Positions 10,500-25,681 of a stretch of 28,527 bases of DNA are shown piece by piece (the stretch's first letter is position 1; each line of letters starts with the position of its first letter). This DNA comes from a virus. The notes beneath the pieces are model-generated. The model was not told the DNA's origin. It was given only the letters and a program-made list of their open reading frames with translations, and did not search any database. The position numbers were made by a program, and so were the translations under genes. The DNA lies in IMG/VR virus record IMGVR_UViG_3300040801_002812, positions 1 through 28,527 of that record; one strand, 5' to 3'.

Positions 10500-10817
10500 T
10501 TATACATCGAGATTTTCTGGATCAAACATTAAATCTGTCTTATCTTCAGATTTTTTTATTGTTGGCGGGGCTTTTAATTTTTCCATAATTTTTTGAAATA
10601 GTAAATCTTCATCTAATTGTATTTCAGCGATTCTTCGATAAGGTTCTTTTGGTCTTTCAACCTCCCCATTTATTTTAACCCTCATATCTCTTTGAATTAT
10701 ATATTCTGATCTATATGGATTTGGCTTTATTTTGTTAGTTGTTGTGCTTGAGACACTATATTTATAAGGTTCCCAAAAGTAATTATGATGAAATGATTCA
10801 TCACCCATTTTATTCAA
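10500..10817 (-). CDS. Small hypothetical protein coupled to rpoB
   Basis: 105 residues, not recognised. The N-terminal third is rich in aromatic residues and polar Ser/Thr (HHNYFWEPYKYSVSSTTTNK), the middle is basic (YRSEYIIQRDMRVKINGEVERPKEPYRR), and the C-terminus is a charged helix followed by an acidic tail. The first ATG (10817) overlaps the last eight bases of rpoB and has AGGGA five bases upstream; a second ATG at 10808 is too far from that site. Overlap with rpoB makes it a candidate polymerase-associated protein, but nothing in the sequence shows this directly. It does not resemble alpha, omega or a sigma factor. Confidence 0.75.
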   Translation of the reverse strand: MNKMGDESFHHNYFWEPYKYSVSSTTTNKIKPNPYRSEYIIQRDMRVKINGEVERPKEPYRRIAEIQLDEDLLFQKIMEKLKAPPTIKKSEDKTDLMFDPENLDV

Positions 10818-13812
10818 TCCCTATTACAGTAAGATATGAATTTAAAAGTTTAACTGACTCTGGAATTGTATCGATTTCTTTTTTATCATCTGTATAATTT
10901 GGATCAATGTGATTTCTAATGTATTGATTTTTTAGATCGATACAATCTGATTTTGTTGTAAGAAATTCAAATAAATTTATTGGAGCATCATGACCAATAA
11001 TACATGCTGTTTCCATCTCGCCGCATCTTTGGCCACCCTTATTTTTTCGACCGCCTAATGGCTGAAGAGTTCTTTTTGCGTATGTACCAATTCCACGTGC
11101 TGCAATTTTTTCTTCTGCAATATGAACCATTCGCAAAAAGTAAATATACCCTGCTGCAACTTTATTATGTAAATGACTTTTTGATAGAGGGTCGAAAATT
11201 TTATATTTAAAATCTGTATTTGTATATTTTAAAGCATTCTTCACATCATCTAATTTACATGATTCAAACGGAGGTTGTAATATTGATAGTTCATCAATGA
11301 ATCTTTTATCGATTGTTTCTGGCATCTGTGCAGCAAATTGTTCAGAATACCATCCTCCATTTGTATTATCAACGATTTCAATGTATTTCATCAAATAATT
11401 TTTGATGTCGCCTTGATCTGTTTCATCTTTAAGCATATTATACATATTTTGTTTAAGGTCATTCAATGACATTGCCATATGTAACTCAAACATTTGACCG
11501 ATATTCATTCTGGAAATGATGCCCAATGGATTAATACAAATATCCATATGACGACCATCTTCCAATTGTGGCATTTTTTCATGTGGAACGATTCTTGAAA
11601 TAACACCTTTATTTCCGTGTCGGTTTGCTAATTTATCTCCAACCTTTACACGTCTAAAATGAACACCAACCAAATTAATATGGATTCCATTGATCTTTTC
11701 TTTTTTGTTTTTATATTTACCAACAAATGAATAAACATCCACCCCATTTTCACGAATGAATGTTTTAGCAATATCTTTTGGTAATTTATCTTTGAGGATT
11801 TTTCTTGTTGCTGATTCTTCCTCTTGTTGAACTTGAATTTTCTTTTCAACCCATTCTGCAAATTCAGGAATTTCATCATTCCATTCATTTGCATAAATAC
11901 TGCTTTCTGAAATGATGAAATTTCTTTCAGACTCTAATGTGATTGGTTCACTGAATACTGAATATGGATCCTCAGTATTCATTGTTTTTATAATTGCGTA
12001 TGGGTCTCCAGCATTTATATTTTCAAGTTCTTCCGGTAATGGTTTATATTCATCTTTATTTAATGATAACAATACTTTGTGTGGAGGCAACGTAAATGAC
12101 AAGTCTTTAAAATGGACTGATGTTAAAACATCTTCGTTTACAAGTCGATCAGAGACAACAATTCCATCTTCATAATTATTGCCATAATACACCATAACAC
12201 CTGTCAGAAGATTCTGACCGAATTTAATATTTCCATTTTGGCAGAAGTTGCTTTCAGCAAGAATTTCTCCTGCTTTAAATTTGTCGCCTGGTTTAACATA
12301 TATATTCATAAAGTCCATGTGTTCAACATAGATCTTTCTGTAACCAATATCAAATATATCAACTTCATTATCTTCATATACAACAATCATAAATTTTTTA
12401 TCAATATGAAGGACTTCTCCTTTTTTCTTTGCACGTTTAATAAATTGTGTTTGATCTGTATATAAATGCTCACACCCTGATTTCATCATTGGCATTTGAA
12501 AGTTTTTCAGTAAAATAGCTTGTCGCATCTGTGAAGATGCCATTTGTAATCTTGTTTGGTCGTCATGCTCAAGAAACGGAACCATTGAAACTGGAATTGA
12601 AATTGGTTGTTTATCCAAAAACTCATCTGAAAATTTCCAAGATTCGTCTAACTTTACATTTGGTATAAGGTTTTGTAAAACGCCACAATTGTCCCTATCT
12701 GGTGTGTCAACGGGGCAAATTCTTCCAAACATGCTAGGGCAAATATCTCTAAGATGTTTGGGGATATTTTCTCTTTTGAACCCACCTGGACCCAAAAGGC
12801 TAATTCTTGATAACTTTGTTAATTCCTCAATTGGATTAATTGAGAAATCGAACTGAACAATATCTGAAACATTACATTCACTTAATACTTGTGTTGAGTT
12901 GATATTGAATTTGGGTTGTCTTGCTGTTCGGTTCGAATAACATAAATCAAATATGATCTTTGATAATTTTGCAAAAATCATATATTCAAAACAACGAACT
13001 CTTTTGTTTGTAAATAATGTATCATCTACATGACCAATTTGTAATGCATATAATATTTCTTCTATAATTGAACCTGTATGAAGAAATCTTGTTGTAATTG
13101 GATCAATTTTTGGAATTAAATCAAGGGCATACATAACATCCTCACCCTTTGATTTTGCATTATATTTTGAATATTGTCTTCCCACTTCTACGATAAAATC
13201 ATCTTGTGTGTAACCTTTTGATTCCTCATAGAATAATTTTAAATCTTGTAATAGCAATTCCATTAGATTTTCTTGATCAAGAATTTTAAATGTTGGTAAT
13301 GCAAATCTTTTTACCAGCTCATCCATTCCGTAATAAGCAAGCATTAATAATGAAAGAGCAATTTTCTTGCCAAGGAAGCTAACACTAATATGTGGCATTT
13401 CTTTTTCTTTTGTCACCATCAATGTTGCTACGTTGGTTCTTAATTTAATTGTTTCACCTCTTGTTACTAAAGGAATATCAAACAATTGAAACAATGGAAT
13501 TTTCTTTCTTCCGTTAATCATAATATAATTGTTTTCCACCAATTTCGGAATAAAGAAACTTAAATCAATATTTGAAGTTCCTTTTTGAAGTCTTATCACA
13601 AGACTTTTCTTTATTGTTTTTGATAATTCTCCTGATGAAAATCTTGAATCTCTTAAATCTAATTCTGTTATATTAAATCCTATTTCTTGGACTGGTTCGA
13701 TAATTTGTCTAACCAAAGGTAAAATATTTTCATATTCTATTTGTCTTAAAGCGAAAATATTCGCTTTGTTATCTTGAATTGAAAAGTTCGGATTAATTAT
13801 ATTTATGGTCAT
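10810..13812 (-). CDS. rpoB: Phage-encoded RNA polymerase beta subunit
   Basis: 1000 residues, shorter than bacterial beta (about 1200-1340) but intact as one chain. Conserved parts are easy to read: GPGGFKRENIPKHLRDICPS then FGRICPVDTPDRDNCGVLQN (about 340-380, the region flanking the active centre in bacterial beta), NYEDGIVVSD, KVGDKLANRHGNKGVIS with the two catalytic-centre lysines, LGIISRMNIGQMFE, and GGRKNKGGQRCGEMET near the C-terminus that contacts beta'. With beta' it forms the catalytic core that transcribes phage genes. Its ATG overlaps the rpoC stop (ATGA) and has AAAGGGGG about nine bases upstream. No alpha, omega or sigma gene is recognisable in the window. The bacterial-like unsplit form differs from phiKZ-type phage polymerases, whose beta and beta' are divided. 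Confidence 0.97.
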   Translation of the reverse strand: MTINIINPNFSIQDNKANIFALRQIEYENILPLVRQIIEPVQEIGFNITELDLRDSRFSSGELSKTIKKSLVIRLQKGTSNIDLSFFIPKLVENNYIMINGRKKIPLFQLFDIPLVTRGETIKLRTNVATLMVTKEKEMPHISVSFLGKKIALSLLMLAYYGMDELVKRFALPTFKILDQENLMELLLQDLKLFYEESKGYTQDDFIVEVGRQYSKYNAKSKGEDVMYALDLIPKIDPITTRFLHTGSIIEEILYALQIGHVDDTLFTNKRVRCFEYMIFAKLSKIIFDLCYSNRTARQPKFNINSTQVLSECNVSDIVQFDFSINPIEELTKLSRISLLGPGGFKRENIPKHLRDICPSMFGRICPVDTPDRDNCGVLQNLIPNVKLDESWKFSDEFLDKQPISIPVSMVPFLEHDDQTRLQMASSQMRQAILLKNFQMPMMKSGCEHLYTDQTQFIKRAKKKGEVLHIDKKFMIVVYEDNEVDIFDIGYRKIYVEHMDFMNIYVKPGDKFKAGEILAESNFCQNGNIKFGQNLLTGVMVYYGNNYEDGIVVSDRLVNEDVLTSVHFKDLSFTLPPHKVLLSLNKDEYKPLPEELENINAGDPYAIIKTMNTEDPYSVFSEPITLESERNFIISESSIYANEWNDEIPEFAEWVEKKIQVQQEEESATRKILKDKLPKDIAKTFIRENGVDVYSFVGKYKNKKEKINGIHINLVGVHFRRVKVGDKLANRHGNKGVISRIVPHEKMPQLEDGRHMDICINPLGIISRMNIGQMFELHMAMSLNDLKQNMYNMLKDETDQGDIKNYLMKYIEIVDNTNGGWYSEQFAAQMPETIDKRFIDELSILQPPFESCKLDDVKNALKYTNTDFKYKIFDPLSKSHLHNKVAAGYIYFLRMVHIAEEKIAARGIGTYAKRTLQPLGGRKNKGGQRCGEMETACIIGHDAPINLFEFLTTKSDCIDLKNQYIRNHIDPNYTDDKKEIDTIPESVKLLNSYLTVIGIE

Positions 13813-16478
13813 TCAATTTTTTCCCCCTTTAGGATTTTATCCATTATTCCTGAGTATCTACCTTCATTCATGATCCCTTGTAAAATACTTCGTTTTGGGT
13901 TTGAAAATGCCATTGCCAAAATCCAACTTTCCTGATTTGGAACTGATTGGATACTAAAATATTTAGGAGCAAGCTGGTCACGATTCGGCATCAATCTCCA
14001 TTTCTTTCCATTGCTCGTCCACATTAATTGTGCAACAACACATTCAAAATGTACATGATATATATCTTTATCATATACATCAAACAATTCATCGGTAATA
14101 TTGATGTATGTTTTCCCTTTAAACTTGTGGAGTAATTGTGATACTGATGCGAGATCTCCAATGATATCTTTTTGTTTCATATCCTCATGATCTGATTCTT
14201 GACCTTTTATAATAGCTGAACCTGATGTGTGGAATGTTCTTAAAACAAGCTGTGTACCTCTCTCGCCGAGAGTTTGTGCTGCAATAATACCAACAAATCT
14301 TGTATTTAATTTTTTAAATAATTCTCCATAACATTTTGTACATATTTTTGGAGATTTACAAAGAATTGGACTTCTTACATAAACAACTTTACCGATTAAT
14401 TCTTTATAATTATTTGGGGTGATCAATTGTAATGCGCCTTCATTATCATACCATCTATTGACCAACATTCTTGCTTTCTTGTCATTTTTGACATTTACTT
14501 GTAATAGCTCAGTTGTCCCACAGTCCTCAAGGTTTTCATCTATTTGTAAATTGGCACATGTGAATATTAATTTTCTTGAAAGATAACCTGATGTTCCTGT
14601 GTTCAATGCAACATCAAGCAGACCTTTTCTACATCCGTATGTTGAATAGAAAAATTCTTCTTGTGTTAATCCTTCGACCAAACCATGTTGAATTGGTAAC
14701 GGTAAAATTTCTCCATCGAAGTTTGCAATGAAACCTCTCGTTAGAATCATCTGTTTTGCTTGATCCCAACTTCCTCTTGCTCCTGATTCGATCATATATG
14801 AATAAGGGAATTTCTCTCTTAGGATATCTGTTAAGTCTGGGTTGTTTACAGCAGCTAATTGATTTCTTATATCATCATCTTGATATAATGAATCTCTTAA
14901 TTCTGCTGCACCTTCAAACCCAAAGTCATCAAGTGAAAGAGTTGAACCAACAAGAGTTGCATATTTAAAACCAACTCTTTTAATGTTATCCAATACTTTA
15001 ATTGTAACGACATCTGGATATGTATCTTTAACTTCATTTAATATTTTCATCAACACTTTTTTATCGACTGTTTCTTTTACTTCTGGATAATCATCTGGCA
15101 GACATTCATTGAAAATTTTCAAACCTTCTTCTTTATCCCAATATTTTTCTGATGTAATAAAATAAATGCCAAGAACAATATCTTGACTTGGAGTTGTTGT
15201 TAAATCCTCATTTGCAGGACTATGAAGGTTTTTAGTGATAAACATCTTATCTCTAATTTCCTGTTTTGCTTCATCTGTAACAGGAACATATACAGCCATC
15301 TGATCCCCATCAAAATCTGCATTGAATGGTGGGCATACCAATGGGTGAATTTTAATGACTTTATCCAATGTCATTTTAATGTTAAAACCAAGCATTCCGA
15401 GTTTATGGAGAGATGGTTGTCTGTTTAATATACATACTTCATTTTTAATTATTTCCTCACATACCTTATATAACGCGGGTGAATCAAGCTCAATACAACG
15501 ATCAACAAAGTCCATTGCTTTATTCAACAGCTTGAATTTGCCCAACTCAATAATTCTTTTTGCGATTGGTAATTTATAAATTTCTAGAATCATAACATAT
15601 GGCAAAATACATTCATCAAGAGATAATGTTGGGTCAGGGGTAATTACAGCCCGACCTGAGAAGTCAATTCGTTTTCCCAAAATGTTTCCACGAATCAATC
15701 CCTCTTTCTTTGCCATTTTTTCTAATATTCGATGATATAATTCATTTACATCTTTTTGAATTTGTTTGAAATATGTATAATAGAGATTTTTATCTCTGGC
15801 TAAATCGATGACCGTTTCCCTCATGATTTCTTTTTTTGTCAATATTTGCACATAATATCTATTGATTTTATCCATCAATTGTTTACCACCCGAAACTGCT
15901 GATGATGGTCTCAAGTCTGGTGGTAATACGATAACATGATCAATCAATAGATTTTCAATGTGATCGTATATTAATTTCCACTTTTCATTTCCTTCATCTG
16001 CAAATATCTTTGAGAAATCATATACTAATTTATAAATTGCATCTGTTTTTTCGTAAACCTCTACTCCTTCAGGAGGGGTTCCGTCTGTTGCCAATACATG
16101 TTCATCACCATCCATATACATAAATGATTTTTCATTTCTCATTAATTGATTGACTGCGTCTTTCATGTTTCGCCCGCCTGTCTCGATAAGCAAATCATAA
16201 AAGATTGGACTTACAACTTTGAATGGTAATTGAATTTTTGCGAATCTTTTTCGCCTTACATCACTGTTGACAATATCAACATTGCATAGCGAACATTTCC
16301 CTCCCGATTTAGAAACACCATAATATGTCCCACATTGACATGTATAATTTTTCAAAGGACCGAATATCTGTTCTGAAAATAATCCTTCGGGATGAAATTT
16401 TCTTTTGCTGAATACTTTTAAGGAAGTTACTTCTTCCAGGTCTTCACAAAACTGTGAATAATTCAATAGTTTGGGCAT
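13809..16478 (-). CDS. rpoC: Phage-encoded RNA polymerase beta' subunit
   Basis: 889 residues, compact versus bacterial beta' (about 1200-1400). The N-terminal zinc ribbon is present with Cys47, Cys49, Cys62 and Cys65, in the CxC-x12-CxxC spacing of bacterial beta'. NILGKRIDFSGRAVI (265-279) and ILNRQPSLHKLGMLGF (350-365) are followed by the absolutely conserved NADFDGD at 386-392, which binds the catalytic magnesium. The bridge helix region SGARGSWDQAKQM (565-577), a second Cys cluster (Cys641, Cys707, Cys713, Cys716) and the trigger loop AAQTLGERGTQLVLRTFHTSG (about 733-753) follow. All catalytic parts are kept, so the enzyme should be active. An AAGGAGG site lies about 12 bases before ATG. 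It is upstream of rpoB in the operon, the reverse of the bacterial order. Confidence 0.97.
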   Translation of the reverse strand: MPKLLNYSQFCEDLEEVTSLKVFSKRKFHPEGLFSEQIFGPLKNYTCQCGTYYGVSKSGGKCSLCNVDIVNSDVRRKRFAKIQLPFKVVSPIFYDLLIETGGRNMKDAVNQLMRNEKSFMYMDGDEHVLATDGTPPEGVEVYEKTDAIYKLVYDFSKIFADEGNEKWKLIYDHIENLLIDHVIVLPPDLRPSSAVSGGKQLMDKINRYYVQILTKKEIMRETVIDLARDKNLYYTYFKQIQKDVNELYHRILEKMAKKEGLIRGNILGKRIDFSGRAVITPDPTLSLDECILPYVMILEIYKLPIAKRIIELGKFKLLNKAMDFVDRCIELDSPALYKVCEEIIKNEVCILNRQPSLHKLGMLGFNIKMTLDKVIKIHPLVCPPFNADFDGDQMAVYVPVTDEAKQEIRDKMFITKNLHSPANEDLTTTPSQDIVLGIYFITSEKYWDKEEGLKIFNECLPDDYPEVKETVDKKVLMKILNEVKDTYPDVVTIKVLDNIKRVGFKYATLVGSTLSLDDFGFEGAAELRDSLYQDDDIRNQLAAVNNPDLTDILREKFPYSYMIESGARGSWDQAKQMILTRGFIANFDGEILPLPIQHGLVEGLTQEEFFYSTYGCRKGLLDVALNTGTSGYLSRKLIFTCANLQIDENLEDCGTTELLQVNVKNDKKARMLVNRWYDNEGALQLITPNNYKELIGKVVYVRSPILCKSPKICTKCYGELFKKLNTRFVGIIAAQTLGERGTQLVLRTFHTSGSAIIKGQESDHEDMKQKDIIGDLASVSQLLHKFKGKTYINITDELFDVYDKDIYHVHFECVVAQLMWTSNGKKWRLMPNRDQLAPKYFSIQSVPNQESWILAMAFSNPKRSILQGIMNEGRYSGIMDKILKGEKIE

Positions 16479-16479
16479 A

Positions 16480-16704
16480 TTATGTTGATTCCTCCTTGAA
16501 TTTTTCTATAATAAATTCGGCTATTTCAACGAAATGATGCTTGATTCTTTTTGAAACCATCAAATCGACTTCGTTGATTATTGAATGAACAATAATTTGT
16601 GCATCTGCTTCTGATACTTCAACATCTCTTTTTCTGAGTTCGTCTAATATAAGACTTCGTAAATAATCTTCAAGTTGGTTAACCTTTGTTTCTTCTGCCA
16701 TCAT
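16480..16704 (-). CDS. Small helical protein between the E2-like gene and rpoC
   Basis: 74 residues (73 if the second Met is used), acidic and helical throughout, with heptad-like spacing in LEDYLRSLILDELRKR and IIVHSIINEVDLMVSKRI. It does not show the omega-subunit or delta patterns. Start choice: the upstream ATG at 16704 overlaps the E2-like stop (ATGA) but is only one base from AGGAGG; the next codon, ATG at 16701, sits four bases away and is more plausible. The gene links the ubiquitin-like cassette to the polymerase operon. It could be an adaptor or polymerase accessory; this is position-based inference. Confidence 0.75.
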   Translation of the reverse strand: MMAEETKVNQLEDYLRSLILDELRKRDVEVSEADAQIIVHSIINEVDLMVSKRIKHHFVEIAEFIIEKFKEEST

Positions 16705-17165
16705 TCCTCCTGATTGAGCTGTATGCTCATAGATTTTAGCGGCTTATAAGTAACATATTGTTTTGTAGGTTGAAAATAACAATCATCTAAGTAATAGATT
16801 TTTAACGTATCAAGAAATAACTCAAAATATCTTTGAGTGAATTTCTTTCCCTTTCTATATTCTGGCAAACAATATAATTTTGTTTTTGGGTCTACATTTG
16901 GATGAATACCCATTATCATAATATTTTTAACTAATTCATTTTCTGTTAAAACAACTAATCCTCCTATTACTAATAGAGGATGTAAAAATGTTATGTCATA
17001 TGCTTTTCTACTTTTAATCATTGTTGTTGGCGTGATTTGCCCTTCGTAAATATGATATTCTTGATAAAAAGGCAAATCATCGCCAATCGGTCTTATAAGA
17101 TTTCTACTTTCTATATAATCTAATTTCTTATTATGCAGCACCCGTTTCTTCAAGTAACTCGACAT
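16701..17165 (-). CDS. Candidate ubiquitin-conjugating (E2-like) protein
   Basis: 154 residues, close to the length of a stand-alone E2 core. HPN at 88-90 is followed eight residues later by Cys99 in HPNVDPKTKLYCL; in classical E2 enzymes the HPN asparagine stabilises the thioester-attack intermediate and the catalytic Cys lies seven residues on. A beta-rich region (about 30-85) precedes and helices (TQRYFELFLDTLKIYYL, about 110-126) follow, as in the UBC fold. It would accept an activated ubiquitin-like protein from an E1 and pass it to a target. The gene overlaps the upstream E1-like gene by 35 bases, yet a good ribosome site (GAGGGGAT) nine bases before the ATG inside that gene supports this start. 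It ends in an ATGA overlap with the next gene. The rest of the sequence is divergent, so the call rests on motif, length and context. Confidence 0.55.
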   Translation of the reverse strand: MSSYLKKRVLHNKKLDYIESRNLIRPIGDDLPFYQEYHIYEGQITPTTMIKSRKAYDITFLHPLLVIGGLVVLTENELVKNIMIMGIHPNVDPKTKLYCLPEYRKGKKFTQRYFELFLDTLKIYYLDDCYFQPTKQYVTYKPLKSMSIQLNQEE

Positions 17166-18027
17166 ATTTTAAATCCCCTCTACGTTTAACAGTAACTATA
17201 AAATTTGAAACTCCGGGTTGATCAGAGACAATTTTTGATAATGCTTTTATAACATCAAACGAATTTTCTAAACTGTTTTGTGGGAAAACTGAACGTCTTG
17301 ATTCATTGAAAAATGGATCGCTTGCAATTGGAGGCCTTTCTCCAACAAAGACTTCTACTTCTTGTTGCTGATTTAATGTTAATATTGGAGTTACATTTTC
17401 TTCAATGCAATACATTCTTTGTACGGCATCGGATGTTTCATATATCATATCGATTCTGTTATTGACTGATTCTTCTATTGATTCGCTCATTGCATGTCTT
17501 AAAATGTTTAAATCGATTCTTTGCACTAATCGATTGGCAATCATGTTTTCAATCTGATTACTTTCAACAACCTGAGATGCAAAGAATGCTGCTTTTCGTA
17601 TTTCATTTTTTGTTAAATTTATTGAATATCCTCTACTGTATTCACATGCCATCTGTGTATTTTTTCTGCAGTCGATGATTAAATTTCGGTCTGAAATATA
17701 AAACCTAACATCAATTTGTGTGCCTCTATTACAAACTATATCACGACAGTCAATCACTAAATCGCTTTTTGGTAATAATGTTATCCCTTCAATATAAGAT
17801 TCTTTTATTTTAGTGACAGTAACATCATCTCCAATCATTTCTGCAAGAGCATCAACTTTGTATTCACCAATAGAGGACGAGTTATAGATTGATGTGAATA
17901 CATTTCTTCCTTCTACTATATCATGATCAACAATTATAATTTCTTTTGTTGAATCTAATTCTGAAATATTTCTACATAAAAAACCACCGAGAGTACCAAC
18001 TCCGATGACTGTCACTGTTTCATACAA
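17131..18027 (-). CDS. Divergent E1/ThiF-like ubiquitin-activating enzyme
   Basis: 298 residues. The nucleotide-binding Gly loop is IGVGTLGG (8-15); IIVDHDIVEGRN (31-42) gives Asp34, Asp36 and Asn42 of the E1/ThiF/MoeB adenylation site, SIGEYKVDA (52-60) supplies the usual Lys57, and DLVIDCRDIVCNRG (89-102) matches the later D..D strand. The Arg normally found after the Asn is absent (NVFTSIY instead of a .N..RQ pattern), so activity may be altered or rely on a partner. The C-terminal half is unlike MoeB/ThiF and may bind another protein; a catalytic Cys cannot be picked. The start is a TTG with AAAGGAG eight bases upstream; a nearby ATG at 18023 is out of frame and stops after three codons. 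It follows the modifier gene after a hairpin region, overlapping the E2-like gene. E1-type enzymes adenylate the C-terminal Gly of ubiquitin-like proteins. Confidence 0.75.
   Translation of the reverse strand: MYETVTVIGVGTLGGFLCRNISELDSTKEIIIVDHDIVEGRNVFTSIYNSSSIGEYKVDALAEMIGDDVTVTKIKESYIEGITLLPKSDLVIDCRDIVCNRGTQIDVRFYISDRNLIIDCRKNTQMACEYSRGYSINLTKNEIRKAAFFASQVVESNQIENMIANRLVQRIDLNILRHAMSESIEESVNNRIDMIYETSDAVQRMYCIEENVTPILTLNQQQEVEVFVGERPPIASDPFFNESRRSVFPQNSLENSFDVIKALSKIVSDQPGVSNFIVTVKRRGDLKYVELLEETGAA
17173..17180 (-). promoter_or_regulatory. Ribosome binding site for the E2-like gene, inside the E1-like gene
   Basis: GAGGGGAT on the minus strand, nine bases from the last G to the ATG at 17165. 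Its presence inside the coding sequence of the upstream E1-like gene supports the 35-base overlap between the two genes as real, rather than a later start. Confidence 0.7.
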
Positions 18028-18035
18028 TTATGTGA

Positions 18036-18042
18036 CTCCTTT
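18036..18042 (-). promoter_or_regulatory. Ribosome binding site for the TTG-started E1-like gene
   Basis: AAAGGAG on the minus strand, eight bases before TTG at 18027. It decides the unusual start, because the nearest ATG (18023) is in another frame and ends at once. It lies just downstream of the GC-rich hairpin at 18057-18086. Confidence 0.75.
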
Positions 18043-18056
18043 CACCAACCGAGATT

Positions 18057-18086
18057 GGGGGACCCCAACCGGAGTCCGGGTCCCCC
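18057..18086 (-). other. GC-rich hairpin between modifier and E1-like genes
   Basis: Nine-base perfect stem GGGGGACCC (18057-18065) / GGGTCCCCC (18078-18086) with a 12-base loop. No U-run follows on the minus strand, so it is not a standard intrinsic terminator; an mRNA-stabilising or processing hairpin behind the ubiquitin-like gene, or partial attenuation, fits better. Confidence 0.75.
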
Positions 18087-18096
18087 ATACTGCTAA

Positions 18097-18113
18097 GATG
18101 CTATTCTAGCATC
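18097..18113 (-). other. Small hairpin over the stop codon of the ubiquitin-like gene
   Basis: Perfect 7-base stem GATGCTA / TAGCATC with a 3-base loop GAA on the minus strand. It includes the last Gly-Cys codons and the TAG stop of the ubiquitin-like gene. It lies 10 bases before the larger hairpin at 18057-18086. Together they make a structured 3' end, possibly limiting the transcript or protecting it from decay. Confidence 0.6.
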
Positions 18114-18585
18114 CCTTTTTCCCGGCCGGTTTGAGGAATTCCAGATTGTCGCCCGGTTGCAGGACGTAATCCGCTGGAATTTCCTTGCCGTTGACCAGCC
18201 CGGTGGACAGTTTGTCCACGTTCAGGACCTCACGCAGGAACTCACCGACTTCCTTCACGCTACGGCCGGCAACCGGAAAAGCTCCGGAAGATGCACCGCA
18301 GGATACCTGAATGGTCGTGGTGGTTTTCTGACCGAAAGGTGCCGAAGGTTTGGTCAATGTGCTTTGGGCCTGGAATTCAACACCCTTGATTGCTTCGGGT
18401 TTAGCGGCCGCGGTGGGCTTGGAAATGGATGCCGGTCCGGAGGTTCCGTATTTGGCCAGGATGGCCTGAATGACGGTTTCCTTGTCCTTTTTGGTCAGAC
18501 CGGGCAGGGCCAGTTCGTAGACACACATGTTTTTCAGCTCTTTTGCGGTTTTTGCTTCCAGTTGTTCGCGTGTAAAAGTTGCCAT
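18106..18585 (-). CDS. Ubiquitin-like modifier fused to an N-terminal SAP/Rho-N-like domain
   Basis: 159 residues. The C-terminal ~70 residues (about 89-158) form a beta-grasp ubiquitin-like domain: TTTIQVSCGA, the helix SVKEVGEFLREVLNV (109-123), then LVNGKEIPADYVLQPGDNLEF (120-140), the VNGKEV..D..L..GD.LEF pattern of ThiS/MoaD and PRTRC-C-like proteins. It ends LKPAGKKGC: a penultimate Gly158 plus a Cys159 that would be trimmed, or kept, before adenylation. The N-terminal 5-47 (LEAKTAKELKNMCVYELALP... and helix KETVIQAILAKYG) resembles a SAP/Rho-N nucleic-acid-binding helix pair, joined by a Lys/Ala/Pro/Ser linker (48-87). Its GC content is very unlike neighbours: 34 of 60 bases at 18421-18480 versus 11 of 60 at 15721-15780. 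AAAGGAG lies nine bases before ATG. It sits between the two E1-like genes, as expected for a modifier. Confidence 0.85.
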   Translation of the reverse strand: MATFTREQLEAKTAKELKNMCVYELALPGLTKKDKETVIQAILAKYGTSGPASISKPTAAAKPEAIKGVEFQAQSTLTKPSAPFGQKTTTTIQVSCGASSGAFPVAGRSVKEVGEFLREVLNVDKLSTGLVNGKEIPADYVLQPGDNLEFLKPAGKKGC

Positions 18586-18594
18586 GTTAAAATT

Positions 18595-18601
18595 CTCCTT
18601 T
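18595..18601 (-). promoter_or_regulatory. Strong ribosome binding site of the ubiquitin-like gene
   Basis: AAAGGAG with nine-base spacing to ATG at 18585, within the 48-base gap after the second E1 gene. The same AAAGGAGAA sequence and spacing precede the other GC-rich unknown gene (9241), in line with high translation of both. Confidence 0.75.
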
Positions 18602-18633
18602 AGGTTTGTTTGTTTTACTTCACAGTTGTCAGT

Positions 18634-19308
18634 TTACTTCAAGATTCGAATCTTGGAATCCGAGTTCATTGTTTGGATATCAAAATAAACTTCGGATCGG
18701 TCATGTTGATCTTTCACAACAGAATTGTAAAATAACCAACACATTAGCGTAGCTACGCCCAAGTTTGTAAAATACAACTGGGGCTCTGATTTAGATAGTT
18801 CTTCACAAGACATTTCGTCTGGCAACTTATCGTCCGGGTTTGCAATTTCCGGATGATATGCACAAAGGTCAGGTGTTAATTCTTTCCCCCCTTTCTTGAC
18901 ATATAGCTGTGCATTTCCATCCGTTAATTCATTCCCACCAGAAATTAAAGTAACATCCGAAAGATTTCTACAGTAATTGTTAATGACCATTCTGGATTTG
19001 TGATTGTCAACACAGATGAATACAACATTCCCATTTTGAATTACACTGTCTATATTCTTTTCATTGATATATTCCTGGAATGCATCGAAGTCAATATTAC
19101 GAAATTTGACTTCTAGTTCATCTGCTTTTACATCGGCTTTATTCCCGATTTTAATAAATTCTTGTCTTTCATAATTCTTTGGTTCATACTGATCGCCGTC
19201 AACAAGCAATATTTCGGGTTCTTCAAACCCTCCATAATTTATGAAACGGCATACTTTTTCAGCAAGAATTGACCCGACTCCTCCGAGTCCAATGATTACG
19301 ATCTTCAT
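18634..19308 (-). CDS. E1/ThiF-family ubiquitin-like activating enzyme (PRTRC ThiF-like)
   Basis: 224 residues. A complete adenylation centre is visible: IGLGGVGS (6-13), LLVDGDQYEPKNYERQ (34-49) with Asp37, Asp39, Asn45, Arg48 and Gln49, GNKADVKA (55-62) with Lys57, and FICVDNHKSR (97-106) with Asp101. It should bind ATP and adenylate the modifier C-terminus. Cys149 (LCAYHPEI) and Cys168 (MSCEELS) are candidates for the catalytic thiol; the end of the protein (EPQLYFTNLGVATLMCWLF) matches the C-terminal helices of short ThiF proteins that accompany PRTRC and E2-type systems. It overlaps the JAMM gene stop by four bases (ATGA) and has GGAGG five bases upstream. Located directly before the modifier gene. 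The better preserved of the two E1-like genes and so the most likely activator. Confidence 0.88.
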   Translation of the reverse strand: MKIVIIGLGGVGSILAEKVCRFINYGGFEEPEILLVDGDQYEPKNYERQEFIKIGNKADVKADELEVKFRNIDFDAFQEYINEKNIDSVIQNGNVVFICVDNHKSRMVINNYCRNLSDVTLISGGNELTDGNAQLYVKKGGKELTPDLCAYHPEIANPDDKLPDEMSCEELSKSEPQLYFTNLGVATLMCWLFYNSVVKDQHDRSEVYFDIQTMNSDSKIRILK

Positions 19309-20879
19309 GCGTTACCTCCCCTTTTTCCTCCGAATGCTCGTTTGAACATTTCAATAAGGCTTGCATCTTTCTTCCGTGGAGGAATTGGGATTGTTCCTTT
19401 TTCTGGATCCGGGATAAATTCTTCTGCTGCTGCGGCTTGCCTCAATGCTTCTTCGTTCGCTTTTTCAGCTTCTTCATCAAGACCTTGACGATTTGCTGGA
19501 TCTTGTGGATCATATGATTGACATGCAAGCTCATTTTCAATATCTTTTGCTGATGGCAACACCGCTTGACAAAATGGACAATTCGTATCACTTCTATAAA
19601 CTGGAAATGTTGCCTTACAGCTATAACATCGATATACACCTAATACATCAGGAACATCTGATGATGGTGCTCCTTTTAATTCTTCTGTTGAAGCTCTTTC
19701 ATAACTATCAACTAATTCTGTTTCTGTGATTTCATTTAAATGCTCATCTGTTTTGCATGTTGGGCATTCAAGAGGGTCAGAATCTTCACTGATAATGATG
19801 CCGCATTTTTCACATTTATACATAATATCATCAAATGCATCTTCTTCTTCTAATAATATTTTTTGATCTCTGTGCTTGCATGTCAAACATGCAATTGTAT
19901 CATCAGGCATTTGTGGTGCAATACCTGTGATTTGTGTTTTTCCGGGAGGTAACGCAAGCGGTTTTTGTTGCTGTGGTTTTCCTGTGCCGACTTTGCGATA
20001 ACCTGCCCATGCTCCTGAGTCGTAATTGTCACCCCAATAATTTCCGCCGAGATAATTTCCCCAGCCATAATTTCTTGCACGACCATATACATATTGATAC
20101 GTTCCCTTTTCCACAAGAGACATCCAATTTTGATTGAATTGGCGTTTGCTTGGGGTAACTGTTGTAATATATCGTTTATCAAATTTTCTTGTTGTGTATG
20201 CACTTCTAGCTGTAGCTTTTTCATCAACAACAAGTTTTCCTAATGTATTATCATAACGATAAATTTTATGAACGCTTTTCTTTTCGACTGTATCAATATC
20301 AACAGTCTTTTTTATTCCCAATATATAATCCATTGGATCAACCATAAAACGATAACCATTTGAAACAATTGACCCAGACAGACTAACATCTTCATCAGCA
20401 ACGTTGCCAATTGTGATGTGAAGACCATCAAATGAATTTTCATCATCATCATCAACACCTGAATGAAATGCTGACATTGAACCGTGGCTGTGAATATCCC
20501 CAACCATCGTATAACCTTCAATTGTAAGATTTCGATCATAGTTGATTCCGCCATATGTTACTGACTGTTTTGGCGGTAGGATTCGATATTTTCCTGTTGA
20601 CTCATTGTAAAACAAAAGCACAATCGCTTCTGATGTGTATTGACGATGAACTTCACGAAAGAATTCAATGACCTTTGCAAATGAAGCTGCTGGTATCGGG
20701 TTGATATTCATTCGTGCGCTTGCTGATACCGATTCAAGAATTGATATATTCTTAACCGGTGCTATACTTTCCATAATACCCAACTTTTTCTTTAAGAAAA
20801 TGCCCTCTTTTGCAACGATATAGCAGATATCATCGGAGGGCATTTCGCTTTGACCATCATTCACATGAACTTTGAACAT
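19305..20879 (-). CDS. JAMM/JAB protease with C-terminal zinc ribbons (PRTRC-A-like)
   Basis: 524 residues. A JAMM metalloprotease motif is complete: Glu84 (TSEAIVLLF), His130 and His132 (GDIHSHG), Ser140 and Asp143, matching E...HxHx7SxxD. Proteins of this type cleave ubiquitin-like modifiers from targets or trim their C-termini; the order and pattern resemble PRTRC-A. Residues about 262-297 are Tyr/Gly/Trp/Asn-rich (NYGWGNYLGGNYWGDNY), likely flexible or self-associating. Then come five CxxC pairs (331/334, 356/359, 372/375, 418/421, 434/437), forming two or three zinc ribbons that could bind substrate or nucleic acid. The tail is Glu/Ala-rich, then a basic FGGKRGGNA end. Start ATG directly follows the upstream stop, with AGGGGA seven bases away. 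No signal peptide or membrane segment. Fits a role as deconjugase or modifier-processing enzyme; the zinc-ribbon part may act as an E3-like adaptor, unproven. Confidence 0.88.
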   Translation of the reverse strand: MFKVHVNDGQSEMPSDDICYIVAKEGIFLKKKLGIMESIAPVKNISILESVSASARMNINPIPAASFAKVIEFFREVHRQYTSEAIVLLFYNESTGKYRILPPKQSVTYGGINYDRNLTIEGYTMVGDIHSHGSMSAFHSGVDDDDENSFDGLHITIGNVADEDVSLSGSIVSNGYRFMVDPMDYILGIKKTVDIDTVEKKSVHKIYRYDNTLGKLVVDEKATARSAYTTRKFDKRYITTVTPSKRQFNQNWMSLVEKGTYQYVYGRARNYGWGNYLGGNYWGDNYDSGAWAGYRKVGTGKPQQQKPLALPPGKTQITGIAPQMPDDTIACLTCKHRDQKILLEEEDAFDDIMYKCEKCGIIISEDSDPLECPTCKTDEHLNEITETELVDSYERASTEELKGAPSSDVPDVLGVYRCYSCKATFPVYRSDTNCPFCQAVLPSAKDIENELACQSYDPQDPANRQGLDEEAEKANEEALRQAAAAEEFIPDPEKGTIPIPPRKKDASLIEMFKRAFGGKRGGNA

Positions 20880-23468
20880 TTAAAGTCCCCTATCGTTTAT
20901 TAGTAAATATTTAGATGTTTGATCTTCTGCAATTAGACAATTTCCATGAAAATCTGGAAAGCCGTATTTATAACCAAGCTCACCCTGATTTTTTGGGCCA
21001 AGTCGTGGAGCAGGAATACAATCGAAAATAGAATCAGCTTGAAAATATCGATCAAATGAATATGAATCTGGATACCCACTATACACTTCAAGGGGTGTCG
21101 CTCTTAATTGTCTTGTTATCTCACCTGATAGTAAAAACCCAAGAGAGCTTGTATAATTTCTCTGCCCTACGATTATATCACCTGCTTGAAATTTAATCTT
21201 CGATAGATCCAGCGGGACATGCTGTAATGTAGCCCACTTCTTAGATTTCATTGTTACTTTTTTGAATTTTTCTATTACATCAGAATACCATAATGTACAA
21301 CCATTCGAACACAATACCAATGGTTCAAAAGGACCATCAATTATAATAGCAACGACGATATTCACATCTTTCTTCGGGAAGCAATATATACCTGCTTCTT
21401 TTGCAATAATTTTTGTGCCCACTGATAATTTTTCAAATTTGTTTGTTACCTTTCTTACTTTTCCTACATAGATTGCACCACTTCTTTGTAAATCAACATA
21501 TACCACTTCTGATAATTTTTCACTTTTATCTGTAAGAATAAATGATATTTTTCCATTTCCTTCATCAACTTTAAATCCACATATTGTTTTGACATTTAAA
21601 ACATCTAGAGGATTTTTCCAATCTGCGTGGACAACCTTATCTCCGATTTCAAATGTAATATCTCCATCAACGCCAACAACATGAAATTTGTTATCCACAA
21701 CTAAATCTTTGAGATTACTGATATGTGGCGATGACCATCTATAATTTCCTTGAATAAAAACTCTTCCATTGTATGCCATTGCTGCATTTTCAACTGGATC
21801 ATCATTCCACATCCCACATTTTAAATTTCTTCCGACTCTAAATATTTTTGGCATTGGTTTTGCATCAGAAGCTTTAATAATTTTTTGTCTTGTGCTTCTT
21901 AATGTATTTGTGCCAAGTCGAACTGTTTTATAATCACTTTTTATATATTTATCTTGACATTTAAATTTTACAACAATGTTATCTGATCTTTCTTCAACAT
22001 CAAGAGAATGAAATTTATATATACCACCATGATTCATTGCACTTTCATTAACATCAGTAGAGACAATATATAAAACATCTTTTTCAATTTCAACACCAGA
22101 TATTTCTGGTTTCTCAACATCGAATGGTTTTGCATCTAAAATATTTGAGAAATAATAAGAATTTCCTATTCTTACTTCGTGAAGATCTGGATTGTCTCCA
22201 CGACTCCTTCTGATGTATTTTACTTTTTTGTATTCCTCTTTGCCGTTTCTATTAATGACAATGATATCATTTGGTTTAATTACCGATCCATTTTTTAATT
22301 CCACTTTACTTAACATTCTTTGATCTTCTATATTTTTTCTTAAAAATCTTTCTGCACTACCATGATATTTAAGAACTAATTGTTTTCCTTTATAATCAAG
22401 ACCAATATATTTAACTTCTCCGCCATCCATAAATCCGATGAACGTATCAACGTATGCAAACTCTCCATTTTTTAGCTGAATTGTATCACCAACGTTTAAA
22501 TAAATATCATTATTAAGATAAATACCTTGGCATATATCGTAGAATAATTTATGTTTCTTTCTTCCTGTTGCTTTTACTTTTGCTTCTTTTCCTGTATCTT
22601 GAGGTTCATAGAATAATCTTTCGAGATCTTTAAAAGACATTCCACGCTCTCGCCCCTGCCTATCTTCCATTATTCCTCTCATTATGCGTAATTGTTCTGC
22701 TATTGTTGCATACTTAATCCAATCTGCTGTATATACAAACATTGGGTCAACTTTCGACATGTGTGCCCATTCAAGATAATTACCAAGAATAGGAACATCT
22801 CTATACGCTGAATAATTATATGTATAATCTGGGTTAAACGTTGCAGACCAGAAAACCATAATGAGATTTGATACTGCTGCTGATAATGATCTTTGTCTGA
22901 TATGCCCTTGATCTCCGAAGCATATTGTTTGAGAATCTGATATATTTAACATCGGCATTTTACAAACAAAATCTGATGTGCCTGACATTTGAGCTGGTCT
23001 TACAAATGCACGACCTTGTAGCATACCATATGAATTATCAATATAAAACATAAATATGACATACGGAAGGGCAAGCGTAAAGGACTGAGTTTGTCTTGAG
23101 GAATATTTGCCAAATTTATTATGGTATTCTGTTTGCTCAATAATCCCTCTTGTTTGCAAATCATTCCATTCTCTTTCAAAGTTTTTTGATATTGAAATTG
23201 TTCTCATTGCAGGTGGTTCTTCAATTATTAACATATAACCATGTGGAGTCTTTTCTAGATATCTACAGTTCACAGGCATTACTTCATTACCAAGAATTGA
23301 ATCTTGTGCCATTCTTTTTAATAGATCTTCTGTAAAGAGTGTTTTCTTTTTTATTTCTGGAGTAGTTTCATCTTTCGCATCATCGGTAGTACTAGGAGCA
23401 CATTTGATATGATGCGAATAACGTTGACTTAATCGAATTTCCTCAATTAAACCATCACCAATTGCCAT
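20880..23468 (-). CDS. Large Prok-E2_D/PRTRC-B-like protein with beta-rich C-terminal region
   Basis: 862 residues. About 75-200 resembles the E2-like domain of PRTRC-B/Prok-E2_D proteins: IIEEPPAMRTISIS (81-94), LALPYVIFMFYID (132-144), a GRAFVRPAQ strand, then MPMLNISDSQTICFG (171-185), the P..N.....C.G signature with candidate catalytic Cys183. The long rest (about 320-860) is almost all beta strands with repeated short barrel-like units, for example LNVGDTIQLKNGEFAYVDTFIG and KPNDIIVINRNGKEEYKKVKYI, suggesting SH3/KOW-like or other small barrels that bind proteins or nucleic acid. The length is far above PRTRC-B. It opens the ubiquitin-like block, ending directly before the JAMM start; ribosome site CGAGG six bases from ATG. 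A dedicated E2 with built-in target recognition would fit, but the remote family match cannot be confirmed by eye. Confidence 0.65.
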   Translation of the reverse strand: MAIGDGLIEEIRLSQRYSHHIKCAPSTTDDAKDETTPEIKKKTLFTEDLLKRMAQDSILGNEVMPVNCRYLEKTPHGYMLIIEEPPAMRTISISKNFEREWNDLQTRGIIEQTEYHNKFGKYSSRQTQSFTLALPYVIFMFYIDNSYGMLQGRAFVRPAQMSGTSDFVCKMPMLNISDSQTICFGDQGHIRQRSLSAAVSNLIMVFWSATFNPDYTYNYSAYRDVPILGNYLEWAHMSKVDPMFVYTADWIKYATIAEQLRIMRGIMEDRQGRERGMSFKDLERLFYEPQDTGKEAKVKATGRKKHKLFYDICQGIYLNNDIYLNVGDTIQLKNGEFAYVDTFIGFMDGGEVKYIGLDYKGKQLVLKYHGSAERFLRKNIEDQRMLSKVELKNGSVIKPNDIIVINRNGKEEYKKVKYIRRSRGDNPDLHEVRIGNSYYFSNILDAKPFDVEKPEISGVEIEKDVLYIVSTDVNESAMNHGGIYKFHSLDVEERSDNIVVKFKCQDKYIKSDYKTVRLGTNTLRSTRQKIIKASDAKPMPKIFRVGRNLKCGMWNDDPVENAAMAYNGRVFIQGNYRWSSPHISNLKDLVVDNKFHVVGVDGDITFEIGDKVVHADWKNPLDVLNVKTICGFKVDEGNGKISFILTDKSEKLSEVVYVDLQRSGAIYVGKVRKVTNKFEKLSVGTKIIAKEAGIYCFPKKDVNIVVAIIIDGPFEPLVLCSNGCTLWYSDVIEKFKKVTMKSKKWATLQHVPLDLSKIKFQAGDIIVGQRNYTSSLGFLLSGEITRQLRATPLEVYSGYPDSYSFDRYFQADSIFDCIPAPRLGPKNQGELGYKYGFPDFHGNCLIAEDQTSKYLLINDRGL

Positions 23469-23854
23469 TATTCACCTCGTAGGAATTTAAGTTTCATAGC
23501 ATATTGAGTCAAGATTTTGTTTGGCTTGAACTCGTTTATTTCCCAAACTTTTCTGCGTCTGGGAGGAATTGTGTCTTCTAGATTTTCTTCGTTTATTCTG
23601 TACTTTTCTAATGTGTAATAAACAACAACATATCGTTCTTCGTCTTCTCTTTCTAATGTTAAAAATCCAATTTCTTTATCATTTCTTCCTGGAACTTCTA
23701 ATGCTAAAAATATCAATCCGCCTTTTGGTGCAAGGGTTTCATATTGAAGTTTTGGTTTTTCTTGTTCCATTATTTTATCACATATCTGTCTTGTCTGTTC
23801 TGTTATATCAGATTTTATATTAATTTCTTTCAAAAGAATATCAATAATTCCCAT
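23468..23854 (-). CDS. Hypothetical protein preceding the E2_D-like gene
   Basis: 128 residues, not recognised. A short N-terminal helical part (MGIIDILLKEINIKSD, KIMEQEKPK) is followed by strand pairs (LAPKGGLIFLALEV, KEIGFLTLERED, ERYVVVYYTLEKY), suggesting a small alpha/beta fold, and a basic segment IPPRRRKVWEINEFKP; the C-terminus is YAMKLKFLRGE. No Cys clusters or membrane segment. Start ATG has AAGGGG about nine bases upstream; its last base overlaps the first base of the next gene, so it is coupled to the E2_D-like gene and may belong to the cassette. Confidence 0.75.
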   Translation of the reverse strand: MGIIDILLKEINIKSDITEQTRQICDKIMEQEKPKLQYETLAPKGGLIFLALEVPGRNDKEIGFLTLEREDEERYVVVYYTLEKYRINEENLEDTIPPRRRKVWEINEFKPNKILTQYAMKLKFLRGE

Positions 23855-24208: not shown

Positions 24209-25288
24209 TTATTCCTCCTGTAGGAAATCTACTACTCTTTTATCTACATGTATAAGACTACCAACATCTTTTGAATTCTTGTTAAGATGCTGACTCATCA
24301 TTAAACAAGAATGATTACAAAGTTGACAGTATCTTTTCTTGTCTATCATTAATAATTGATAGAATTCATTTGTTACACCTTTTGATCGATCTGTGATTTC
24401 AAATATATCGCTCACATGAATTGTTGGCGTAACAACCCCTCTGATTCTCAAACACAATCGCATTGTGCCATCAGCATCAACTGTGACATTATGAACGCTG
24501 TTTTCCAGACAACAATCGAAATTTGATGGTAATGTATCAAACATCCAAGGAAGCAAAACATCTTTCATATGAATTAATAAATGATCATTCTCCAACATTC
24601 TATTAAGCATCTTAGCCAATTCAAATGTTGGTTTCACAAGAAAGTCTTCATTCGTTACATTGGAAAAATCATAATATGGGCTTTTAGCAATATCAACAAA
24701 TGTGATATCACTATAGATTTCATTTCGACTTAATTCTGTTACAAGAGCTTCTAAGAACTTCCAATTTTCATTTGTTACTGTTATTTCAGCAACAACATCT
24801 TTGACTAATTTTGCTGCTTGTAATTGTTTTAATCTTTTAAGCCCTTCTGTACTTTTCTTTATAATATCTAAAGCACTCATATCAATATAATCCGGCATTT
24901 TCATTAATGCTATTGGGTCAACTGAACTTGTAAATCCTTCTATATATTTCACCTTATTAAATAAATCTGTTATTCTTTTCTGAATTTCAGGTGTATTGTT
25001 ACTGATGATTGTATAATATATTTCATTGTCATTGCAAAAGTTAATGATATCTGCAAGATCATTTCTTAATATTGGTTCGCCGCCATAGAAGATGTGAAAC
25101 ATATCTGGGTTTAAAATTTTAAAATTTGCTAATGCATTCAGAACTGTTTCTGTTGACATTTCTTTATCTTTATAATGTTTCATGTTCGGATACTGTTCAG
25201 GCATCCCATAATAATCTTTTACGATTGCACAGTAATCACATTTAAGATTACATCGTCTTGTTAATATCCAATTTACAATTTGGATCAT
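24209..25288 (-). CDS. Radical SAM protein with SPASM/twitch-like auxiliary domain
   Basis: 359 residues. CNLKCDYC (13-20) gives Cys13, Cys17 and Cys20 in the CxxxCxxC iron-sulfur site of radical SAM enzymes, and YGGEP (68-72) matches the SAM-binding GGE motif. The C-terminal part carries Cys260-x13-Gly274-x4-Cys279, the CX9-15GX4C hallmark of SPASM/twitch domains, followed by Cys321, Cys324 and Cys328 (YCQLCNHSC) that may complete an auxiliary cluster. Members with these domains mature peptides or proteins (cross-links, thioethers) or act as other modifying enzymes, so it is a candidate protein-modifying enzyme. It starts 9 bases after the gene of the Ser-rich protein at 25298; ribosome site AAGGAG five bases from ATG. 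Substrate is unknown. Confidence 0.9.
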   Translation of the reverse strand: MIQIVNWILTRRCNLKCDYCAIVKDYYGMPEQYPNMKHYKDKEMSTETVLNALANFKILNPDMFHIFYGGEPILRNDLADIINFCNDNEIYYTIISNNTPEIQKRITDLFNKVKYIEGFTSSVDPIALMKMPDYIDMSALDIIKKSTEGLKRLKQLQAAKLVKDVVAEITVTNENWKFLEALVTELSRNEIYSDITFVDIAKSPYYDFSNVTNEDFLVKPTFELAKMLNRMLENDHLLIHMKDVLLPWMFDTLPSNFDCCLENSVHNVTVDADGTMRLCLRIRGVVTPTIHVSDIFEITDRSKGVTNEFYQLLMIDKKRYCQLCNHSCLMMSQHLNKNSKDVGSLIHVDKRVVDFLQEE

Positions 25289-25297
25289 ATGTTCTCC

Positions 25298-25681
25298 TTA
25301 TCCATAATAGACTTGTTTAACCAAATCTCCATACTGCTCTTCAAATTTTTCATTAACATTTCTATCTATTGATGCATAAATCACAGTCTCTCCTTCTTTC
25401 AATATTTCAAGGGCTGCATTGTATTGTGCTTCACTAAAATATTCAAATCGTGGCCCTGTTGGTTTTTGTGCCCAATCAAGGGGCTCCCCACCATTTGTAA
25501 ATACTTGTAAGGTTTCAATATCATTGAATTCTTCTCTTATATCAACACCTTCATTTGCTGCCATTGGATCATTATCCAATGCTTGTATAAATTCTATTAA
25601 GCCATCATAATCATCATCAGAAACACCAATGATATATGATGAACTTGAACTGTTTGTTACAAAATCTGTTTTGATTTTCAT
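25298..25681 (-). CDS. Small acidic protein with a TNSSSSSY N-terminal motif
   Basis: 127 residues, strongly acidic. It begins MKIKTDFVTNSSSSSYIIG, a conserved-looking N-terminal start that I remember from unrelated small proteins of bacteria and phages; its function is unknown to me. The rest contains acidic helices and strands (YDGLIEFIQALDNDP, TVIYASIDRNVNEKFEEQ). There is no signal peptide. The gene overlaps the next one by four bases and is directly before the radical SAM/SPASM gene, which could act on it as a substrate. The start is supported by the motif and by AAAGG ten bases away; a GGAG is closer but only one base from the ATG. Confidence 0.8.
   Translation of the reverse strand: MKIKTDFVTNSSSSSYIIGVSDDDYDGLIEFIQALDNDPMAANEGVDIREEFNDIETLQVFTNGGEPLDWAQKPTGPRFEYFSEAQYNAALEILKEGETVIYASIDRNVNEKFEEQYGDLVKQVYYG

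Follow-up and report, generated by a model that had tools for sequence, protein, structure and literature searches.

Does a phage encode its own ubiquitin-like conjugation pathway? The question is raised by the IMG/VR virus record IMGVR_UViG_3300040801_002812 (28.5 kb; all 28,527 nucleotides are referred to as the window), in which six adjacent genes at positions 16701–23468 encode a putative ubiquitin-like modifier (Ubl), two E1-like proteins (E1a and E1b), two E2-like proteins (E2long and E2cand) and a JAMM metalloprotease (Table 1). Most of what is known of ubiquitin-like systems in bacteria comes from cassettes on plasmids and from antiphage defense. From comparisons with related loci, we favor with moderate confidence the reading that this cassette specifies a reversible ubiquitin-like conjugation pathway and has been passed down, together with the RNA polymerase, as a core operon within a lineage of jumbo phages. 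Protein tagging may then belong to normal phage biology, beyond bacterial defense.

Six genes and their conserved residues

The window belongs to a tailed phage: it encodes a terminase large subunit (phrog_2, 2.1e-36) together with RNA polymerase beta and beta′, in line with the initial annotation of this DNA, which had called it a phage genome. All six cassette genes are intact and co-oriented on the minus strand, which also carries the other main genes of the window, and they are contiguous with ATGA overlaps or short gaps as had been described: E1a and JAMM share a 4-nt ATGA overlap, Ubl and E1a are separated by 48 nt and E1b and Ubl by 78 nt, and E2cand overlaps E1b by 35 nt. The TTG start of E1b is backed by aligned ATG starts in relatives. 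Scanning with an E1a alignment retrieved 51 viral loci, and with a Ubl alignment 23, on contigs of up to 459 kb; the window and most of the relatives are fragments. These alignments also recovered relatives of E2long (862 aa) and JAMM (524 aa), for which single-sequence peptide patterns had found no direct relatives in viral contigs.

E1a matched ThiF in Pfam (4.7e-20) and PRTRC_ThiF (9.3e-12), and its nearest solved relatives by PDB profile matching were UBA5 (2.4e-7) and BubCD of Citrobacter (8.8e-6). As expected of the E1/ThiF superfamily, it has a complete ATP site (GxGGxG, D, N-R-Q, K, D-N, R) and a cysteine; GxGGxG, D37, R48, Q49, K57, D101, R106 and C168 are invariant (50–51 of 51 relatives). 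JAMM matched Prok-JAB above the gathering score (6.9e-6), with E84, H130, H132, S140 and D143 present in 52 of 52 relatives, and the number of its C-terminal zinc ribbons differs between relatives. E2long gave a Prok-E2_D match of 0.017 in the window; 25 of 32 relatives matched the same family (best 3.6e-6) and 6 of 32 matched PRTRC_B (best 0.0065). Its Cys183, Asn175 and Pro135 are kept in all 46 relatives compared. The initial annotation had listed a Prok-E2_D-like protein and a very long E2-like protein; both features are real, and a single gene, E2long, carries them. The extension of about 600 aa that follows the E2 part has many conserved positions, and we found for it neither a PDB profile match nor a Pfam domain common to the relatives. 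Second copies of the E2long gene occur in tandem or elsewhere in some loci (L078:4052-8853, L074:16339-17580, L066:18534-19346).

The N-terminal domain of Ubl had been described as SAP-like. The domain is there, and its closest Pfam family is Rho_N, found in 32 of 44 relatives (best 3.8e-13) versus 6 of 44 for SAP; the Ubl profile also matched Rho itself in the PDB (0.0026). The C-terminal part matched the beta-grasp models TGS (32/44, best 6e-4), ThiS (25/44, best 7e-4) and MoaD, and K157 and G158 are present in 46 of 46 relatives, so that beta-grasp domain and C-terminal Gly mark the protein as a predicted ubiquitin-like modifier. After the K-G pair, 26 of the 46 proteins stop, 14 have one extra Cys and six have another extension of 1–8 residues (R, F, LA, DRKGC, IDVGL or FEKMCFFY). 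One locus (L059:10713-11672) encodes a tandem double modifier, two Rho_N and beta-grasp units joined after ...KPAGRKG, which can be likened to a polyubiquitin precursor. The varied ends and the double modifier therefore suggest maturation by cleavage after the Gly, for which JAMM would be the obvious enzyme. We rejected the possibility that the terminal Cys reflects a recoded stop or stops in tandem, since its codon is a genuine TGC/TGT and extensions of other kinds occur in other lineages. An apparent second Ubl in L116, L137 and L156 was likewise rejected, being a Rho_N-only protein that lacks the beta-grasp domain; in two of these loci (L116:3140-3520, L137:3777-4115) the extra gene, with a Rho_N domain and an acidic tail, lies between p128 and E2long.

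The ThiS and MoaD matches, and the FolE2 and radical SAM proteins encoded nearby, would also suit a sulfur carrier, in which E1a activates Ubl as a ThiS/MoaD-like thiocarboxylate for thiolation of a nucleoside, a cofactor or DNA. Such a carrier does not account for two E2-like proteins with invariant Cys, a JAMM protease and a Rho_N domain on the modifier, and no rhodanese or sulfurtransferase was seen among the annotated genes; we consider it very unlikely.

E2cand had been proposed as a candidate HPN-type E2, and its motif is well conserved. The His and Cys of its motif are present in 40 of 40 relatives, Pro in 39 and Asn in 38, with a loop between HPN and Cys that differs in length in a few. 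Elsewhere the protein drifts to about 25% identity between relatives, and invariance of His and Cys despite this drift supports a conjugation pathway. An AlphaFold2 (AF2) model has a pLDDT (predicted local distance difference test) score of 86, and its top structural matches are E2 enzymes. The family profile, searched against the PDB with E up to 5, gave a single match, the E2 enzyme E2-21 kDa, aligned precisely at the active-site stretch HPNVNFKTGEIC (E about 1). The E2cand sequence alone gave no family match, one of 39 relatives matched UQ_con (0.0059), and HH comparison found no similarity to E2long. From motif conservation, model and PDB profile match, E2cand is likely a true E2.

A JAMM protein paired with a Ubl is known from phage tails, and a role in assembly has been proposed for TAPI and TAPK of lambda (PMC1779556). 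The phage pair could similarly act in virion maturation, with the E1 and E2 folds non-catalytic, yet the ATP site and Cys of E1a are complete, the E2 cysteines are invariant, there is no NlpC/P60 domain, and the cassette lies beside polymerase and SbcC genes, not recognized tail genes. We regard this explanation as highly improbable.

E1b, the other protein for which a structure model was available, matched ThiF in the window (2.6e-9) and in 39 of 40 relatives. It is paralogous to E1a (HH probability 98%), and the best structural match of its AF2 model (pLDDT 85) is the Cap2 E1 domain, with Z 15.6 across residues 1–189. Family matches thus bear out the beta-grasp modifier, the two ThiF proteins and the JAMM protease that had been annotated. 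E1b has retained the ThiF fold and some of the ATP site and has no equivalents of the E1a Arg, Gln, Asn and Cys168; by this residue comparison, it is a degenerate E1 paralogue that has lost the E1 arginine and cysteine. Its C-terminal tail is conserved, in most cases as ETGAA or.GGA, and the final residue is Ala in 68 of 69 loci. The tail is kept also at loci where E1b and E2cand do not overlap (gaps of +1 to +24 nt); conservation merely through the overlap is rejected by these loci, and the tail therefore appears to be selected as protein. HH comparison found no similarity between the C-terminal part of E1b and the Ubl beta-grasp domain. A subset of loci has one or two more conserved genes (about 450–1000 bp) between Ubl and E1b, for example L033:11189-11755 and L070:11222-11788.

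Gene order beside the viral RNA polymerase

Loci retrieved with E1a and Ubl overwhelmingly have the order E2long-JAMM-E1a-Ubl-E1b-E2cand-p74-rpoC-rpoB. To avoid circularity, we also scanned independently of the cassette with an rpoC alignment, which gave 62 contigs with a related rpoC (48–76% identity) and at least 5 kb upstream. The six genes were present in order on 59 of them, exactly on 56 and with an added Rho_N-only gene on three, confirming that the gene order is kept in related phages. Median identity to the window was 0.60 for E1a and 0.56 for Ubl, compared with 0.69 for rpoC, and distances between relatives tracked those of rpoC (Spearman 0.82 for E1a, 0.81 for E2long and 0.76 for Ubl), which fits long co-inheritance. 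The cassette is thus near-universal in a large uncultured phage group, as a core operon just upstream of the RNA polymerase genes. No match to E2long, E1b or Ubl was found in cultured phages, and none to Ubl in bacterial or archaeal genomes. E1a was found on one contig of the latter (L082), in the archaeal metagenome-assembled genome Thermoplasmatales CSMAG_1140; it has the complete phage order and is probably a mis-binned viral contig, at most a hint of the host and no evidence for one.

Counter-defense genes are usually patchy in their distribution. Counter-defense had been guessed at in the initial annotation, a guess that found no support here. In such a role the cassette would tag and disable host antiviral proteins or host RNA polymerase; bacterial defense systems use similar enzymes (PMC10097602), and phage modification of host proteins is also known. 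The fixed site beside the polymerase, the near-universal presence and an E1a and Ubl conservation almost equal to that of the polymerase favor a core role instead, and we consider counter-defense quite unlikely.

The exceptions to the order are informative. One contig (L146, the same as L062) has only the core four genes. At L140:8349-9652, E1b and E2cand lie beside rpoC, and none of the other four cassette genes was found on the 91.9-kb contig. The core is present too in more distant phages (L064-L066, L068, L069, L073-L075), where the E2 is shorter and Ubl lacks the Rho_N domain; no E2cand was detectable in the records searched. The core four genes and the E1b-E2cand pair thus form modules that can be separated, the pair probably being the later addition.

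Such separability would also be expected of two pathways, the core four acting with Ubl, and E1b and E2cand with the E1b C-terminus as the conjugated tail, comparable to conjugation of cGAS by Cap2. In the cyclic-oligonucleotide-based antiphage signaling system (CBASS), conjugated cGAS has a conserved C-terminal Gly or Ala and variable penultimate residues (PMC10097602), and the E1b Ala is likewise conserved, whether or not its gene overlaps the next. Set against this, E1b has lost the Arg and Cys, so that another activator would be needed, and its C-terminal part has no detected homology to the Ubl beta-grasp domain. Two pathways thus seem to us doubtful, and as alternatives the tail may be conjugated like cGAS or may dock to a partner.

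Likeness to PRTRC, type 6d, CBASS and Bil systems

In the type 6d systems of Iyer et al. 2006, a Ub-like protein, JAB, an E1-like and an E2-like protein are encoded together (PMC1779556). The phage cassette likewise encodes all four together and has E2-D, JAMM and ThiF in the order E2-JAMM-E1 plus a Ub-like protein, with matches to PRTRC_A, PRTRC_ThiF and, in some relatives, PRTRC_B. The scores, however, fall far below the curated cut-offs: E1a reached 44.8 bits against PRTRC_ThiF (TIGR03736, cut-off 144.75), and JAMM reached 54.6 bits (1e-14) against PRTRC_A (TIGR03735, cut-off 101.8), which makes it related and not a member. The phage modifier differs in having a Rho_N domain and no Prok_Ub match; none was found among Ubl relatives or window proteins (PF14454 / PRTRC_C), in searches of which one matched no control genome either. 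The His C-terminal to the Cys that is absolutely conserved in type 6d E2s (PMC1779556) is not conserved in the phage E2-D, as no His follows C183 among the invariant or near-invariant columns (32–50 relatives), and this E2 has its long extension. Zinc ribbons on JAMM, the extra E1b and HPN E2, and the fixed site beside RNA polymerase are further differences. No match to PRTRC ParB (TIGR03734) was found in the window, in six lineage records of 149–248 kb or in a 210-kb core-cassette record, although these records are perhaps incomplete; a 459-kb record gave one match below cut-off. By these sequence comparisons, the cassette core is PRTRC-like (type 6d) and not a PRTRC member. Profile matches, the invariance of catalytic residues, the two structure models and the kept gene order together support the initial annotation in its reading of a ubiquitin-like conjugation cassette in a phage that resembles PRTRC and has new architectures.

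With CBASS Cap2/Cap3 the cassette shares E1/E2/JAMM chemistry (predicted for the phage), E1b being nearest to the Cap2 E1 domain, and an Ala/Gly tail on a non-ubiquitin protein. It differs in that the enzymes are separate polypeptides, there is a dedicated Ubl, the system is in a phage, and no nucleotidyltransferase or effector occurs among the annotated genes. Bil/Bub systems similarly combine Ubl, E1, E2 and JAMM, and include the BubCD matched by E1a, whereas the phage core operon has two E1-like and two E2-like proteins, all as separate polypeptides. No counterpart of the E1b and E2cand module was found in the systems compared.

Unannotated E2-JAMM-ThiF trios, of the same three families in the same order, are present in cultured phages and several large plasmids. 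Among these are L001:1519-4539 (Salmonella phage Arash), L002:9053-11813 (Vibrio phage D69) and L079:5606-8705 (Bacillus phage KLEB27-3), jumbo phages whose trios are mostly annotated as hypothetical or structural and which would make convenient laboratory models. The trios differ from the cassette in that no E1b, HPN-type E2 or Rho_N-tagged Ubl was found there and they are not beside RNA polymerase. In full-text open literature we found no phage-encoded cascade this complete, a search that left most subscription papers and preprints outside and does not prove novelty; a survey of 224 jumbo phages published in 2021 is likewise silent on a system of this kind.

Candidate reactions and the surrounding operon

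What the sequence shows is which genes are present, how well they are conserved and that their catalytic residues do not vary; every reaction, enzyme pairing and target that follows is our inference from this. JAMM would trim the Ubl precursor after its C-terminal Gly, taking off the Cys or another short extension, and would later cut conjugates. E1a would adenylate the Gly and form a thioester on Cys168, from which Ubl would pass to an E2 Cys (E2long Cys183 and/or E2cand Cys99). E1b could be a partner or E2-docking subunit that couples E1a to E2cand, in the manner of the subunit without catalytic activity in dimeric eukaryotic E1s. Ubl would then be attached to lysines of proteins, possibly of the phage or of the host, and each tag would bring a nucleic-acid-binding domain, Rho_N, to its target. 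Given the constant position of the operon next to the viral polymerase and the Rho_N domain on Ubl, the likeliest targets would be transcription or genome-handling proteins, and the pathway probably acts on phage gene expression or replication. We judge unlikely a fuller scheme in which Rho_N-tagged Ubl tethers targets to nucleic acid as a core regulator of viral expression while a second cascade conjugates the E1b Ala tail via E2cand.

Several observations weigh against a conjugation pathway of this kind. Its link to transcription comes solely from gene position and the Rho_N domain, and no E3 and no target was identified. For the E2cand model, E2/UEV entries nearly fill the top of the VIA structural list, with a modest best Z of 4.8 (101 residues, 3.6 Å), and Foldseek found no significant match in the PDB or BFVD. 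In L142 the polymerase is present but the 10 kb around it hold no cassette, and neither E1a nor Ubl was found on its 43.7-kb contig. No E1a, JAMM or Ubl was found on the 91.9-kb contig of L140, perhaps partial, and an obligatory E1a-E1b pair is therefore disfavored.

With a modifier, two E1-like and two E2-like proteins and a deconjugase, the cassette is a compact testable set with new architectures, including a modifier predicted to bind nucleic acid and, outside eukaryotes, a probable E2 whose HPN active site resembles the eukaryotic one. Which proteins the virus tags, and to what end, are questions that it raises, as is its relationship to PRTRC and to the forerunners of ubiquitin signaling in eukaryotes.

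Table 1. Cassette genes and neighboring features of the window.
Feature	Position	Strand	Length	Description
E2long	20880-23468	minus	862 aa	E2-like protein of the Prok-E2_D (PRTRC_B-like) kind; Cys183 invariant
JAMM/JAB metalloprotease	19305-20879	minus	524 aa	PRTRC_A-like; five CxxC knuckles (zinc ribbons) in C-terminal part
E1a	18634-19308	minus	224 aa	Predicted ThiF/E1-like adenylating enzyme; candidate catalytic Cys168
Ubl modifier	18106-18585	minus	159 aa	Rho_N/SAP-like domain, linker, ThiS/TGS-like beta-grasp; ends ...AGKKG-C
E1b	17131-18027	minus	298 aa	Second ThiF-like protein; TTG start; C-terminal tail ETGAA
E2cand	16701-17165	minus	154 aa	Small candidate E2; HPN...Cys motif (H88 P89 N90 ... 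C99)
p74	16480-16704	minus		Small helical protein between cassette and rpoC; at 47 of 62 rpoC loci
p128	23468-23854	minus		Directly upstream of E2long, 1-nt overlap; C25 and E32 invariant in relatives
RNA polymerase beta′	13809-16478	minus	889 aa	RNA_pol_Rpb1/Rpb2 domains; directly downstream of cassette and p74
RNA polymerase beta	10810-13812	minus	1000 aa	RNA_pol_Rpb1/Rpb2 domains
Radical SAM protein	24209-25288			Same operon
Small protein	25298-25681			No family match
FolE2-type GTP cyclohydrolase	9628-10485			Downstream of rpoB

The genes are arranged, in order of transcription, as SbcC-like ATPase, small genes, radical SAM, WYL_2 protein, p128, the six cassette genes, p74, rpoC, rpoB and FolE2. 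FolE2 (3.1e-63) is downstream of rpoB in nearly all relatives as well and possibly serves 7-deazaguanine or folate synthesis. The radical SAM protein is also kept in nearly all relatives; its best NCBIfam model is the prokaryotic viperin family, at a sub-threshold score (5.3e-11; 42 versus 180 bits). The small protein next to it, which starts MKIKTDFVTNSSSSSY, occurs in most relatives, singly or as several copies in tandem.

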